This document shows, piece after piece, positions 4,462 through 30,024 of a stretch of 30,024 nucleotides of DNA. The notes under the pieces were generated by a model, which worked only from the letters and a program-made list of their open reading frames with translations, was not told the origin of the DNA and did no database searches. The position numbers and the translations under genes are program-made. Where the stretch lies: positions 1-30,024 of the IMG/VR virus record IMGVR_UViG_3300032240_000307; one strand, 5' to 3'. Source of the DNA: a virus. Position 1 is the first letter of the stretch, and every line of letters begins with the position of its first letter.

Positions 4462-5565
4462 ATGAAACTAACAGAATTACTAACAGAATCAGAAATACAC
4501 GAACTACAATATCTTGAAGAAGGCCCAATCTTAAACAAGATCGGCGGCGTTGTAGGTGATGTAGCAGGCGGCGTTGCTAAAGGTGTTGGCGCAGTAGCAG
4601 GCGGTGTAGCAGGTATGGGACGTGCATTTAAGAAAGGCTTTGCATCAGGTAAAGCTAGAGTAGCAGGCGATGCAGATCCTAATCCAACTCCAGCAGATCC
4701 TCAACAGGCAGCAGGTGGCGCAGCAGCTCCAGCAGCAGGCGCTCAAGGCGGCGGTGCAGCAGCTCCAGCAGCGGGCGGCGGTGCAGCAGCACCAGCAGGT
4801 GGCGGTGCAGCAGCACCAGCAGGTGGTGGTGCCCCAGCAGGTAGCGGTGGATTTGATTCTAGCGGTAGACCAGTAGCAGCAGCACCAGCAGGTGGTGCAG
4901 CAGCTCAACCAAGTACAACAAATGTTAATGTTTCAGGAGGTAATGCTCAAGGCGGCGGTGCAGCACCTGCAGGGTCAGCTCCTACAGATGGAGCAACCGG
5001 AACTCCTCCAGCTAATCCAGCAGCAGAAAAAGCAGGTCAGACACTATACGCTCAAGTTAAATCACAAATTAAACAACTTGATAAGAAAGGCAAGCAAAGA
5101 ATTTTAGCATTGCTAAACAAATCGTTAGGAACACCAGATCCTAAAGCAGCAGCAGGTGATGCAGCAGGTGCTGATGCTGCTAACACCGCAGCTAAGCCAG
5201 CTGTAGATAAAGTTGCTGCTGGTATGAGTGCTGCAGGTGCAGCTAACACCGCAGCTCCGGCTGATAACACAACAGCGGCTGCTCCAGCTGATACAACGGC
5301 AGCACCTACTGCACCAGCTGATACAACGGCTGCTCCGGCAGAAAAACCCAAGAGAAGAAGACGTAATAGAAGAACAGCTGCAACTCCAGATCCGACAACA
5401 AGTCAAGCAGAAATCGATGCAGCTCGCGAGAGACTGCTTCCACCTGCAAACGACAGCATTATTAGAACAGGAAATAATCTTGCCGAAACACTACTGAAAG
5501 CCATTGCTGCAGAAAAACGTAGAATGGTAGCTGAAGGTAAGATCAGCATTTTTAGAACACACTAA
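4462..5565 (+). CDS. Ala/Gly/Pro-rich low-complexity virion-type protein
   Basis: A 367-residue protein starting one base after the previous stop. The N-terminus MKLTELLTESEI is followed by a Gly/Ala/Val helix-like segment (28-52). Low-complexity Ala/Gly/Pro tracts occupy about 84-190 and Ala/Thr/Pro/Asp tracts 228-293. Between them is the module YAQVKSQIKQLDKKGKQRI (about 196-214), shared with the upstream protein. A basic patch KPKRRRRNRR at 295-304 could bind DNA, and the last 60 residues return to ordinary sequence. LTES could be an LxE-type prohead-protease site. An internal head or DNA-associated protein is a reasonable guess, not a demonstrated role. Confidence 0.6.
   Translation: MKLTELLTESEIHELQYLEEGPILNKIGGVVGDVAGGVAKGVGAVAGGVAGMGRAFKKGFASGKARVAGDADPNPTPADPQQAAGGAAAPAAGAQGGGAAAPAAGGGAAAPAGGGAAAPAGGGAPAGSGGFDSSGRPVAAAPAGGAAAQPSTTNVNVSGGNAQGGGAAPAGSAPTDGATGTPPANPAAEKAGQTLYAQVKSQIKQLDKKGKQRILALLNKSLGTPDPKAAAGDAAGADAANTAAKPAVDKVAAGMSAAGAANTAAPADNTTAAAPADTTAAPTAPADTTAAPAEKPKRRRRNRRTAATPDPTTSQAEIDAARERLLPPANDSIIRTGNNLAETLLKAIAAEKRRMVAEGKISIFRTH
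4711..4911 (+). repeat. Low-complexity GCA/CCA/GGY codon tract
   Basis: This stretch encodes Ala/Gly/Pro runs with near-repeats of the unit GGTGCAGCAGCACCAGCAGG. Similar but weaker tracts recur at about 5143-5340. The repetition makes long artefactual frames on both strands. Confidence 0.85.
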
Positions 5566-24182: not shown

Positions 24183-27100
24183 ATGTCAGCAGAATTTAAA
24201 ATAGCCCGATTAAGATATAACTGGGCCGGAGCTTGGGCAACAGGTCAAACTTTCAATCGCGATGACGTAGTGTCATATAATGGTAAGACATACATCTGTT
24301 TAACTCCACACACTGCCGGGGATTTTTATGACGATATCGGACATACTACCGGTACCGGTGCGATTACTCCTTATTGGGAATTGAGTATTGACGGCAAAGA
24401 ATGGAAAAATGTTTGGACTGCAAATACCTACTACAGTCTAGGTAATATTGTTCGTTATGGCGGAGTTGTCTATGTCTGTACCGGCCAGCACACTAGTGCG
24501 TCAGGCGTCAATCCTCAGATCGATTTAGCCTTCTGGACACCATTATCAACTTTCTCAAACTGGAAAACTAACTGGACTCCTAACACAGTTTTTGGTGTAG
24601 GCGATGTTGTAAAATACGGTGGCATTGTCTATAACTGTAACACTAATCATATATCTGCTGTCGATGTAGCAACTGGCCTAGAAGCCGATCAAAGCAAATG
24701 GACATTGGTAAACAATGGTGTCGAATACAAAGGTACTTGGGTTGGCAGCACACGTTATAAACTCAACGATATTGCAAAATACGGTCCAGATCTTTATATC
24801 TGTATACAAGGGCACACTTCAGGAACCTATGATTCAACATTGATATTTGACGAAACTAAATGGACAATCTGGATGCCAGGTATCGAATTTTCGTCTACAT
24901 ATAGCGATCTTGCAATTTATAAACCAGGCGATGTTGTCATCTATGGTGGATATTCATATGTAAGCATCACAAACAATAATAGAGGAAATATCCCCACTCA
25001 GTCATCAAGCGATTGGTCAATATTGACACAGGGCTATATGATGCAAAATGAGTGGTCAAAAACCTTAACATATAAGATTGGCGATATTGTAAGACGTCAC
25101 GGTATGCTGTTTGAAGCTGCACAAGATGTGCCAGCGACATCACAGTCTCTAGATACTGATCCAACTTCATATAGCATTGCAACAACATTATCAGCAGCAT
25201 CAACTACCACAACATTGGTATTACCTTCGACTACTGGATTGCAGCCAGGAATGATTGTTGCCGGTACAGGGTTCACACTTGGACAACAGGTTGTTAAAGT
25301 AGTTAACAGTACCGATGTTTTAATCAGTCAAGCACCCGACGGTGTAACATCGTTAGGACAGACAGTTAGCTTTAATGGTATTAATTACATCTATTGGACT
25401 TTATTAAATCCGGGAATTCAATATCTCGGACGTTGGACATACCTAACTGAATATGTAGTAGGCGATGTAGTATATTGGTCAAATGGAACATATCAGTGTG
25501 TGCTTAATCACGTAGCAACAGCTAAAAATGCTCTAGTTCCAAATAGACCAGACTCAGAGTTGTCAAATACCTATTGGGTAAAATTAGTACAACACTCAAA
25601 AAATAATTCATTAAACACTCCAGGTGATATTGAAACATATTCTGCAGTTACTAATACACACGTTCCTGTAGCAATTGGTGCAGAGACACAGGTATTAAAA
25701 TCAAATGATAATTTACCTGCTTGGAGTACAATTAACGAAATTACCAACGTATTCTATGTTTCAGAAAAACACGGTACTGACGGAGCAGCCTACGGAGCCA
25801 GCTGGGATAAACCAATCAAGTCTATCAAATATGCCTGCGACAGAATTCTTGCAGGTACATTATATACAAATGCCAGAACAATAACAGAATTGAACAGAGA
25901 TTGGGTCATCCAAGAAATGTATCAATGGATGTTGAAACAGAAAGCATTAAGCCAATCTCCATTTAGTCCAAGTTCTGTATTTGACGAAGCTAAAACTAAA
26001 CGAGATGCAGGTCTTGTTTTTGAAGCAGTCTTATACGATTTAGCCCGAGGCGGCAATAGTCAAACAGTGGCAGCGGCTCTTTCATATTTTGCCGATGGAT
26101 CACAAACAGCATACGTTAATGCAAGCACCGAAGCAGCTATGCCTTATATCATCGCATCCATTAACAAAATGAATTCGTTGATCACACAATATACTATTAG
26201 CAGTACATTAATGCTAGATGTTGATAGTGCTCAGGTATACAATAATATTCCAACTACTCTAAGAGTTCAACAGGTAAGAGATTCGACAACCTATCCACTA
26301 GAAAGTGGCGCAGCATCAGCGATTAACGCATTATTCTTGATTATTACAACAGCATTGACAAATCATACAACTGCCAGTTTACCAGCGCAAAATCAGGGCA
26401 TTACATCAACAGTGTTTGTTAAGACAGGCACCTACAGAGAAACATTACCAATTGTTGTACCAGAAAATACAGCGATCGTAGGAGAAGAACTTCGCGGATC
26501 TGTTGTGACGCCTGCTAATGTTATTGATACCATTGTTAAAAGCACGTCGAGTGGTGACGCATCATTTACCGTAACTTCTACAGACGGTATTGTGGATGGT
26601 ACTCCTATTCAGTTCTCAGGAGCCATTACAATCGGAGCTGGCACACTGTCAATTGGTGGTATTACTACGGGCCAGACTTTTTATGTTAACGATAAAAATG
26701 CAGCAAACGCGGGCACACCTGAAATTACTGCTATTTCATATCTTAACGGTTCTCTACTACATCCAGACGGACACAGCAAGATTCTTGGTTTTGCCTTAGA
26801 CGGATACCCAATCTATGGCCCAATTGGTTATACGAATCCTAACAGTGCCGTTACAGCACCAAAGAGAATGCAAAGTGGTTATACATTAAATTCTTCAAGT
26901 ACTCGTGTAACTCCTGTAACAGATACCGCAAGATATCCGATGGGTATCTTTAATGAAGACTGGACATTTACTAATCCTGCAGGTACTGACCTAGATGAGT
27001 ATAACGGTCGCTATTGTGTTACTCCAGACTATCCTAACGGAACTTATGCTTACTTTACAACTATTGATGCCGGCGGTGCACCAGCATATCCTTATGTAAT

Positions 27101-30024
27101 CGGTAAACGTTTCTACGGTGTCCCAAATCCGTTAGTCAGCGACTATTACAGCGGCGGCGGCTCTGCACCTGCTGGTTACTTTATTGAATACACAAGTCAA
27201 AAATCAAATTTTGACGGAGTACAAAGCAGTTGGACAATCAGTGCAGATGGCGGAACTATCCGTGCAAAAGCTAAAGGCGTACCGTATCACAGCTTCGGAA
27301 GCCAAACAGCTACTAATAATCCAAAGATTCAAAACTATGATCTATCATTTAAGTTTAGAGGTGGTACTAATCAAGCAGCTACATTAAAAACATCAGTAGG
27401 TACTGGTCAAGTTGGTTTTTGGCTGAACGGAGTTGCAATTTTTGGCGCAACAGCAAGTCAAGGTGCGCCGTCTGGCTACACTATTATTTCTGGATATACA
27501 TATAATGCTTCAGCAGCAGCAGGGAAAGCATTAGGTTATTCATTCAATCAAGATTTGTCAGGTGGTATTACAACATCCGATGGAGCATATCGTTATATTG
27601 ATGGTAGCTTCTTCAGTGCTTGGACGACCGGCACAGGATCAAACATTACCGGTACAGCAATTACTGCAACTAAGTTCAGTATTTCAGCATTCCCAGGCGG
27701 ACCGATATTTCCAATTCAAACAGCATCTGCTGGTAATGCAGCGATCTATGTCTACGGTGGCGATGCTATTCAGGATATGTTCCGTTTACGTAATGGTACC
27801 GGTTTAAGAAATATGACCTTTACTGGTCTACTAGGATCACTAGGCGGCATTAACGCATATCAAACACAACGTCCATCAGGCGGATCTTACTCAAGCCTAG
27901 ATCCGGGTCGTGGACCAAACGACAGCCGTTCTTGGATCTATCGTCGAAGCCCATATACACAAAACTGTACAGTATTCGGTTACGGATGTACAGGTATTAA
28001 GATTGATGGTGATCTACATCGCGGCGGGAATAAATCAATTGTTGCCAACGACTATACAACTATTCTATCAGGTGGTATTGGCGTATGGTGTACAGGTTCA
28101 GGAGCACTAACAGAACTTGTTTCTGTATTCGCATACTATTCATATTCTGGATATCTTGCTGAAGCAGGCGGACGAATTCGTGCTACAAACGGAAACACAT
28201 CTTACGGTACATTCGGTGTTATTGCAGAAGGTTACGATCTATCTGAAGTACCTATCGCAGGAACTGTTTACAATAAATCAAGCCAGGTACAGGCCAGTGT
28301 TCAAAGTTCATTGAGCGGTAGTGCTCAGTTAACGGGTGTCAATTATGGCAATGCAGGCGTGGCCTATTATACAAGTACTACAAATAACTTGTTGTACAGT
28401 AACAACTATTTTAATGCTGCGTGGACCAATGACGGTAATGTGGTATTACAGAAAAATGCTCTTGCTCCAAACGGTGTGTCGGAAGCGTGGACATTTACTG
28501 CACTTACTGGCGGTACAGATACTGCATACCTTACACAGGCAATTAGTATTCCAGCAGCTGGTAAGACATATTCAGGACTACCAGCAAACAACTTAACAGG
28601 TAGCGGTGTTTCTGCAACATTTGATGTTACAGTCACAAGTACTAGCTACACTGTACAGGTCAATTCTGGCGGTAGCGGATATGTTACAGGTAACACAATG
28701 TTTATTCCCGGCAGTAACTTAGGTGGTACTGACACAGTAAACGATTGTACAATTACTGTGCAATCATTATCTGGTAGTGCTATTTTAACAGTAGGTGTTG
28801 CTGGCACAGTACCGGCAAACAGCGCAAAAAACTATACACTCAGTGCTTATGTGAAACAGGGAAATTCAAATACTGTTGATCTAGCTGGTATATTTTCTGG
28901 TAATACAACTGTACAAAGTAAAGTGTCATTTAACTTTGTCACCGGAGTAACAACAGCATCTAGTGATGGCACTGGGTTTGTTCCTACACTATATGGTGCA
29001 AAAGTATTACCTGATGGTTGGTACAGATTATATATGGCCATTAACGATGTTACTGGTCTTAACACAACATTAACTCACAGGATTTATGCTCGTGGAGTTG
29101 GACAAGCGGCTGGCTATACATATATCTATGGTAACCAAGTAGAAGTTTCCAAGACAAACGGACAGCCAAGTTTCTATCAAGAAACACAGGCAGCAAAATA
29201 TACAGCCTATGCAAACTACAACATTGTTGGCGCTGGAACAGGAGCCCAATTAGTGGGTGATGAAAATAGATCAGGCGGAGTATTCCAAACTCGATTGACC
29301 GACCTAGATGGTACCGGCTCAACAGGCGGTAACGGATATCTAACAGCGTCTAACAATGCCCAAGGCGGAACTGATCAATACATTTTACTTGCTGGTTCTG
29401 ACACAAGAACTGCCACTAACTATGTTGGTATGAATGTGTTTATTAATAGCGGCACCGGTTCAGGTCAATACGGTTATATTTCATATTTTGATGCAGGTGT
29501 AAGCAAGCGTGCCAACGTATTAAAATCAAGTTTTGATGTTTTAAAAATTGGCGGAACAAATGCATCAGGCAACACATTTACACTAACAACTCCATCGAAA
29601 GTAGACAAGCTCTACATTGATATGCCGGTAGAATTTATTCCTACATACTACAAGACCAGTGTTACCGCAACCAGTGTTGGCTACCTTACAGCAACCGCAG
29701 TAACTGGTGGCATCTACAATACAGTTAGCGTAGCGTCAACAGCACAATTAAGAACTAATCAAGCGGTTAAATTCTTTGCCATAGACGGAACACAGTCAGT
29801 ATTTGGTGGATTAACAGGCGACTATAATTATTATATTGCTGCAATTATTGATAGCACAACTATTCAGGTGGCTGCAACAATTTACGGCGCTGCACAACAA
29901 CTGGTAACACAAAATGGATCAATGACTATGTCATTCCCAAGCGGTACTAGTTACCTACAAGGCGCCACTGATACAATGACACCTAATTTGTTAATTCAGT
30001 TTACTGGAACAGCATTAGGCGGCA
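24183..30024 (+). CDS. Giant modular virion surface protein / adhesin (3' end outside window)
   Basis: The frame is open from ATG 24183 (AAGGAA upstream) to the window end, at least 1,947 residues. Modules: seven chitin-binding-like (CBM5/12-type) repeats from about 14 to 450; a small beta module (320-380) between repeats 6 and 7; a helical region with YVSEKHGTDGAAYGASWDKP (about 525-700); a pectin-lyase-like beta-helix start, VFVKTGTYRETLPIVVPENT (744 on); YHYH-family C-half (about 860-980, ALDGYPIYGP) and N-half (about 1078-1145, WLNGVAIFGA); beta-helix resumption (1198-1385, RNGTGLRNMTF); then a CBM-like jelly roll with NYTLSAYVKQG and GWYRLYMAIND (from 1400). This suggests glycan recognition or processing at the host surface. 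Enzymatic activity is not shown. Confidence 0.85.
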   Translation, partial: MSAEFKIARLRYNWAGAWATGQTFNRDDVVSYNGKTYICLTPHTAGDFYDDIGHTTGTGAITPYWELSIDGKEWKNVWTANTYYSLGNIVRYGGVVYVCTGQHTSASGVNPQIDLAFWTPLSTFSNWKTNWTPNTVFGVGDVVKYGGIVYNCNTNHISAVDVATGLEADQSKWTLVNNGVEYKGTWVGSTRYKLNDIAKYGPDLYICIQGHTSGTYDSTLIFDETKWTIWMPGIEFSSTYSDLAIYKPGDVVIYGGYSYVSITNNNRGNIPTQSSSDWSILTQGYMMQNEWSKTLTYKIGDIVRRHGMLFEAAQDVPATSQSLDTDPTSYSIATTLSAASTTTTLVLPSTTGLQPGMIVAGTGFTLGQQVVKVVNSTDVLISQAPDGVTSLGQTVSFNGINYIYWTLLNPGIQYLGRWTYLTEYVVGDVVYWSNGTYQCVLNHVATAKNALVPNRPDSELSNTYWVKLVQHSKNNSLNTPGDIETYSAVTNTHVPVAIGAETQVLKSNDNLPAWSTINEITNVFYVSEKHGTDGAAYGASWDKPIKSIKYACDRILAGTLYTNARTITELNRDWVIQEMYQWMLKQKALSQSPFSPSSVFDEAKTKRDAGLVFEAVLYDLARGGNSQTVAAALSYFADGSQTAYVNASTEAAMPYIIASINKMNSLITQYTISSTLMLDVDSAQVYNNIPTTLRVQQVRDSTTYPLESGAASAINALFLIITTALTNHTTASLPAQNQGITSTVFVKTGTYRETLPIVVPENTAIVGEELRGSVVTPANVIDTIVKSTSSGDASFTVTSTDGIVDGTPIQFSGAITIGAGTLSIGGITTGQTFYVNDKNAANAGTPEITAISYLNGSLLHPDGHSKILGFALDGYPIYGPIGYTNPNSAVTAPKRMQSGYTLNSSSTRVTPVTDTARYPMGIFNEDWTFTNPAGTDLDEYNGRYCVTPDYPNGTYAYFTTIDAGGAPAYPYVIGKRFYGVPNPLVSDYYSGGGSAPAGYFIEYTSQKSNFDGVQSSWTISADGGTIRAKAKGVPYHSFGSQTATNNPKIQNYDLSFKFRGGTNQAATLKTSVGTGQVGFWLNGVAIFGATASQGAPSGYTIISGYTYNASAAAGKALGYSFNQDLSGGITTSDGAYRYIDGSFFSAWTTGTGSNITGTAITATKFSISAFPGGPIFPIQTASAGNAAIYVYGGDAIQDMFRLRNGTGLRNMTFTGLLGSLGGINAYQTQRPSGGSYSSLDPGRGPNDSRSWIYRRSPYTQNCTVFGYGCTGIKIDGDLHRGGNKSIVANDYTTILSGGIGVWCTGSGALTELVSVFAYYSYSGYLAEAGGRIRATNGNTSYGTFGVIAEGYDLSEVPIAGTVYNKSSQVQASVQSSLSGSAQLTGVNYGNAGVAYYTSTTNNLLYSNNYFNAAWTNDGNVVLQKNALAPNGVSEAWTFTALTGGTDTAYLTQAISIPAAGKTYSGLPANNLTGSGVSATFDVTVTSTSYTVQVNSGGSGYVTGNTMFIPGSNLGGTDTVNDCTITVQSLSGSAILTVGVAGTVPANSAKNYTLSAYVKQGNSNTVDLAGIFSGNTTVQSKVSFNFVTGVTTASSDGTGFVPTLYGAKVLPDGWYRLYMAINDVTGLNTTLTHRIYARGVGQAAGYTYIYGNQVEVSKTNGQPSFYQETQAAKYTAYANYNIVGAGTGAQLVGDENRSGGVFQTRLTDLDGTGSTGGNGYLTASNNAQGGTDQYILLAGSDTRTATNYVGMNVFINSGTGSGQYGYISYFDAGVSKRANVLKSSFDVLKIGGTNASGNTFTLTTPSKVDKLYIDMPVEFIPTYYKTSVTATSVGYLTATAVTGGIYNTVSVASTAQLRTNQAVKFFAIDGTQSVFGGLTGDYNYYIAAIIDSTTIQVAATIYGAAQQLVTQNGSMTMSFPSGTSYLQGATDTMTPNLLIQFTGTALGG
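24222..25520 (+). repeat. Seven CBM5/12-like protein repeats
   Basis: Within the giant gene, repeats begin near residues 14, 77, 130, 184, 236, 290 and 416. The consensus is a Trp, then about five residues, Tyr, two or three residues, GD-I/V-V, Tyr-Gly, and Tyr-x-Cys followed by a His three residues on in the best copies (for example GDVVKYGGIVYNCNTNH). The aromatic pattern is that of chitin-binding type-3 modules; copies 5 and 6 have lost the Cys and His. Confidence 0.75.

Follow-up and report, generated by a model that had tools for sequence, protein, structure and literature searches.

The tail-fibre gene at the end of the window (the whole stretch of DNA that was analysed, 30,024 bases) very probably contains, in positions 26712-27644, one complete YHYH module whose halves follow each other in circularly permuted order and which is spliced into a hairpin loop of the fibre. 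This arrangement is best read as a circular permutation that arose in nature and was inserted into a loop; its novelty lies in the permuted variant, the domain itself being known, if poorly understood.

The window is a viral contig of T4-like phage origin, as seen from Pfam matches to the gp20 portal, the gp21-type prohead protease and the gp23 capsid; a T4 baseplate protein is also encoded on it (Pfam). Elsewhere on the contig there are two adjacent and overlapping genes for 2OG-Fe(II) oxygenases (670-1290 and 1287-1835; PF13759, PF13640), a gene for a SegE-type GIY-YIG homing endonuclease (2063-2497; PF19835) and a gene for a low-complexity, Ala/Gly/Pro-rich protein with no Pfam match (4462-5565). 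The product of the fibre gene, which matches PHROG 9851 'tail fiber', consists of an N-terminal part with CBM5/12-like repeats (PF02839, seven stretches), followed by a beta-helix-like region, into which the YHYH module is inserted. The parts of the gene relevant to the insertion are the following, L154 and L168 being module-free fibre relatives:

24183..30024, + strand: tail-fibre gene (ORF 24183..30023), the last gene, open at the window end, at least 1947 amino acids
26409..26525, + strand: host beta-helix before the insert (KTGTYRETLPIVVPENTAIVGEELRGSVVTPANVI), 47-52% identical to L154 and L168
26526..26711, + strand: small host beta-domain, part 1 (..FTVTSTDGIVDGTPIQF..ITTGQTFYV), and a short lead; unbroken counterpart in L154 and L168
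26712..27125, + strand: C-terminal half of YHYH, placed first (residues 844-981; PF14240 positions 92-184; normal-order HMM)
27126..27221, + strand: linker from the native C end to the native N end (residues 982-1013), conserved in swapped copies
27222..27644, + strand: N-terminal half of YHYH, placed second (residues 1014-1154; PHROG 2576 positions 31-140; normal-order HMM)
27588..27599, + strand: site of the name-giving motif, which reads YRYI in the window (residues 1136-1139); normal-order members also vary at this site
27654..27752, + strand: small host beta-domain, part 2 (ITATKFSISAFPGGPIFPIQTASAGNAAIYV), matching ..LTSTTFQVSATPGG.. of L168
27753..28382, + strand: continuation of the host beta-helix (GGDAIQDMFRLRNGTGLRNMTFTG..), 49-59% identical to L154 and L168

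The earlier note had quoted several sequence strings from this protein, and all of them are found in one frame, that of ORF 24183..30023(+): GFALDGYPIYGP at residue 869 (26787), DLDEYNGRYC at 936 (26988), YPYVIGKRF at 969 (27087), WLNGVAIFGA at 1080 (27420) and DGAYRYIDG at 1133 (27579). The C-half carries H864 and D873, and the N-half carries PYH (H1036) and NGV. The PF14240 profile (cut-off 25 bits) matches only residues 864-963 of the fibre, at profile positions 92-184 with 91.8 bits, which is the C-terminal part of the family (GHSxI..DGxPIYG..TPxYPxGTY), and the N-half with its NGV and YxY region is not reported in this search. With PHROG 2576 the two pieces are both recognised, in exchanged order, with profile positions 161-276 at residues 858-975 and positions 31-140 at approximately residues 1037-1147, the latter piece alone having an E-value of 2.4e-9. 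Moreover, HMMs of the two halves, built from 37 normal-order modules only and evaluated at Z=1e6, match residues 844-980 (C-half, E 2.3e-56) and 1004-1154 (N-half, E 2.7e-46); they are covered in positions 2-137 of 139 and 7-155 of 159, respectively, that is, the domain is complete and its halves are exchanged. Given the normal-order HMM and PHROG 2576 matches, residues 1004-1154 are truly the YHYH N-terminal half, and chance as the source of the matches is, judged by these E-values, excluded. Thus, the reversed order of the halves, proposed in the earlier note, is borne out, including the relatedness of the second segment to YHYH. The location given there (26740-27640) holds, while its limits have to be moved slightly outwards, to about 26712-27644, with a conserved linker between the halves.

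The order of the halves was surveyed in loci fetched from IMG/VR and one GenBank phage, considering modules with both halves recognised. The order N then C was observed in 57 ORFs, in four of which another insert divides the C-half, and the opposite order in 13 ORFs, several of them from the same contigs; after deduplication, 42 distinct modules remain, 37 with the N-C and five with the C-N order. In each of the 37 normal-order modules the HSK of the C-half follows 32-38 residues after the W conserved in the N-half, whereas in the window and three relatives this order is reversed, with a distance of 283 residues, and in a further module, L124, it is reversed with a distance of 277. As the N part does not precede the C part, the window module is a permuted variant rather than an ordinary member of PF14240. 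For comparison, the normal-order protein L092 (335 amino acids) is read by PF14240 in one stretch, profile positions 8-183.

Since the trees are unrooted, one could suppose that C then N is the ancestral order and the common one is derived. This is very improbable, as PF14240 itself, read in one stretch, has the N-half before the C-half, the N-C order prevails among the distinct modules and is also that of giant cyanophage-type baseplate proteins, and the swapped rows form just one tight clade and one outlier.

The window being a metagenomic viral contig, an assembly artefact or chimera has also to be considered, but its probability is negligible. The module is read in a single unbroken frame, and the C-N order is present in eight other viral contigs representing three sequence types, so that it is not an assembly error: 3300032225_001178 (97% identical to the window over the insert region), 3300032223_000621 and a set of six near-identical ones obtained from other samples. 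The diverged ones among these show 58-77% identity per half. An additional, ninth contig has the C-N order in a different protein (see below). The joined C-linker-N stretch used as a query yielded no further contig with it and no deposited phage genome. A search of bacterial genomes gave one weak hit only.

The module shows no signs of degradation. The window retains 63 of the 64 near-invariant positions; all 23 of the N-half are present, and the single loss is among the 41 of the C-half. Comparison with L083, a 97% identical copy, gives dN/dS values of 0.05 in the C-half, 0.15 in the N-half and 0 in the linker (with dS 0.53). L084 is more diverged, and its linker shares 84% identity with that of the window, which is above either half; among diverged swapped copies in general the identity of the linker is 72-84%. 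The swapped order itself is kept down to 58-77% identity per half, and both halves and the linker are conserved in copies diverged to 53-77% identity. Judging from these substitution patterns, all segments of the module are under purifying selection.

The earlier note had left the choice between a circular permutation and two decayed copies, the latter meaning that the C-half of one YHYH domain is followed by the N-half of a second one, their counterparts having been lost and neither piece folding properly. The linker resembles a native trailing flank joined to a native leading one, as would be the case at a junction of tandem copies, and this agrees with such a reading. Still, the retention of almost all near-invariant residues, the strong purifying selection, the completeness of the halves and the inheritance of the order, with both halves and the linker conserved across diverged copies, make decay quite improbable, and the same completeness and conservation strongly support the permutation. 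Tandem duplication may have been the origin of the module, but without decay. Nor does YRYI in place of YHYH, taken before as a sign of decay, indicate anything except ordinary variation: the literal YHYH is present in only 5 of 37 normal-order phage modules, so the motif is not diagnostic here, and the swapped relative L084 has it.

When the end of the native N-half and the start of the C-half are read together, the normal junction is restored with no evident loss. The cut corresponds approximately to residues 186-195 of L092, and the only internal stretch of the L092 model with pLDDT below 50 is 186-194, where the cut of the window falls. The new ends lie in the former loop between the halves and are both placed in a single beta-hairpin loop of the small domain on the beta-helix; the conserved linker, about 32 residues long, connects the native C end with the native N end. 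The front of this linker is a trailing piece of the G-G-x-x-P type, as after normal C-halves, and its back is a leading N-F-x-G-x-x-S-W piece, as before normal N-halves (e.g. L006, L010, L011), as expected if two copies had once been joined head to tail.

Accepting this, the permutation would have arisen by head-to-tail fusion of the native flanks, with tandem duplication and subsequent loss of the outer halves as a possible route. No tandem-copy intermediate was found among the relatives examined, and no DNA repeats marking a duplication were seen beyond a 16-base chance family. Composition gives no sign of a recent gain, as the module has a GC content of 0.42 and the host segments range from 0.39 to 0.44. 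Permutation requires the native ends to be near each other, and this is suggested, at the level of sequence, by the fibres L098, L104 and L106: as a normal-order module is nested there in a CBM5/12-like repeat, its ends are probably close in space.

The normal-order module L092 is modelled as one domain (pLDDT 72.5, pTM 0.77), and about 300 residues of this model can be aligned to YHYH protein models of BFVD, which are independent of it (TM 0.67-0.68); therefore, in the normal order the two halves are parts of a single globular unit. For the swapped order, the model, which included the module and the small host domain, is poor (pLDDT 47, pTM 0.48); its input alignment had 43 rows, with the halves unpaired. 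Hence it is conservation, and not the model, that leads us to infer a single YHYH domain re-formed by packing of the swapped halves, which two neighbouring strands would attach to the fibre. Searches of PDB by sequence and by fold revealed no solved structure resembling the YHYH module, which is not proof of a new fold.

Tail fibres are commonly trimers, and in such an oligomer the C-half could find its N-half partner in a neighbouring chain, and the fold of the normal order would then be assembled across chains. The linker of about 32 residues permits either pairing. We consider such domain swapping unlikely, as two adjacent ends in one hairpin are explained more simply by a self-contained domain.

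The site of insertion is defined by comparison with fibre relatives. In L154 and L168 the small beta-domain is uninterrupted (..TAGKTYYVLAIDGLKVSIS.. and ..TAGQTYYVIGATLTSTTFQVSATPGG..), whereas in the window its first part stops after ..TTGQTFYV, and the second part begins with ITATKFSISAFPGG. Hence, the YHYH module splits a beta-hairpin that stays whole in relatives of the host fibre. The small beta-domain, in turn, lies in a loop of the beta-helix between VV(Q/T)P and DMFxLRNGTGLRNM, the length of which varies in relatives from 7 to more than 1200 residues, making it hypervariable. Thus, the previous description of the module as residing inside an interrupted beta-helix was right and may be sharpened to a hairpin of a small beta-domain in this hypervariable loop. 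As to the loop in other fibres, it holds 785-1250 residues of other sequence in L150, L170, L193, L198, L201 and L210, and seven residues in L181, L191 and L207, as expected of a hypervariable acceptor site. A fibre loop accepting such different lengths is a possible route by which phages obtain new surface-binding or enzymatic modules.

A second case of the swapped order is L124 (contig 3300032334_001861), where the C-N module is found in a protein different from the window fibre, where it separates two segments (approximately positions 336-366 and 370-581) that lie side by side in the homologue L137. As in the window, C precedes N, the same loop is cut and the linker has a similar sequence; the protein and the insertion site, however, are different. 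Since the insertion sites differ, either the permutation occurred twice or one permuted module was moved to a new host protein. In the best (unrooted) tree L124, a long branch, falls outside the window clade, implying two changes. An independent origin of its swap is not established, a single origin of the swapped order including L124 not being rejected (p-AU 0.24). We tentatively suggest, with slightly less than even confidence, that YHYH behaves as a closed ring, which phages have repeatedly opened at one and the same loop and inserted into unrelated host domains, namely the fibre beta-helix in the window clade and an unrelated multidomain protein in L124; if so, the evolution of the insert's register would not depend on that of the fold.

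Compared with PF14240 and PHROG 2576, the window module has two clearly homologous halves with all but one near-invariant residue, and differs in their reversal, in the linking of the native ends and in the insertion into a host hairpin. Cyanophage YHYH proteins (baseplate or virion structural proteins, e.g. of S-RIM14 and S-ShM2) resemble the window fibre in being large T4-like virion proteins, and unlike it have the normal order. Fibres L098, L104 and L106 share with the window the CBM5/12-like repeats and the insertion of the YHYH module in a host domain, but there the order is normal and the acceptor is a CBM5/12-like repeat instead of a beta-helix loop. Both orders persist at 40-65% identity within one type of virion protein, and natural circular permutations of this kind are useful test cases for the opening, re-closing and insertion of a domain. 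Moreover, as order-dependent profiles like PF14240 see half of the domain, permuted copies are under-annotated.

YHYH domains have been predicted to bind zinc via three His and one Asp and to work as tail-associated hydrolases in the passage on them in PMC7824862, and in a passage of PMC7029224 they are placed among carbohydrate- and host-recognition domains. H864 and D873 of the C-half and H1036 of the N-half, invariant in 37/37 normal members, are kept in the window. The histidines of the YHYH letters are lost in it, and the passage of PMC7824862 names no positions of the zinc site. Binding to the host surface would be the favoured function of the module, with local hydrolysis possible if the zinc prediction holds. 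The full-text passages on 'YHYH domain', which come from a set with few subscription journals, make no mention of a permutation of this domain.

Further insertions are observed in other YHYH proteins. The giant IMG/VR baseplate-type proteins examined have other sequence between the NGV and YHYH segments, and an insert in the same N-C loop as the window cut was rejected for them, given this position. In giant baseplate proteins such as L037 and L013 the N-half is matched weakly, several hundred residues before the C-half, and the insert between its NGV and YHYH segments is large. Finally, in L002 (8730-9065), L022 and L101 the YHYH C-half is split by an insert of about 100 residues, which in L002 looks cupredoxin-like (Pfam Cupredoxin_1, E 0.025, below the cut-off).
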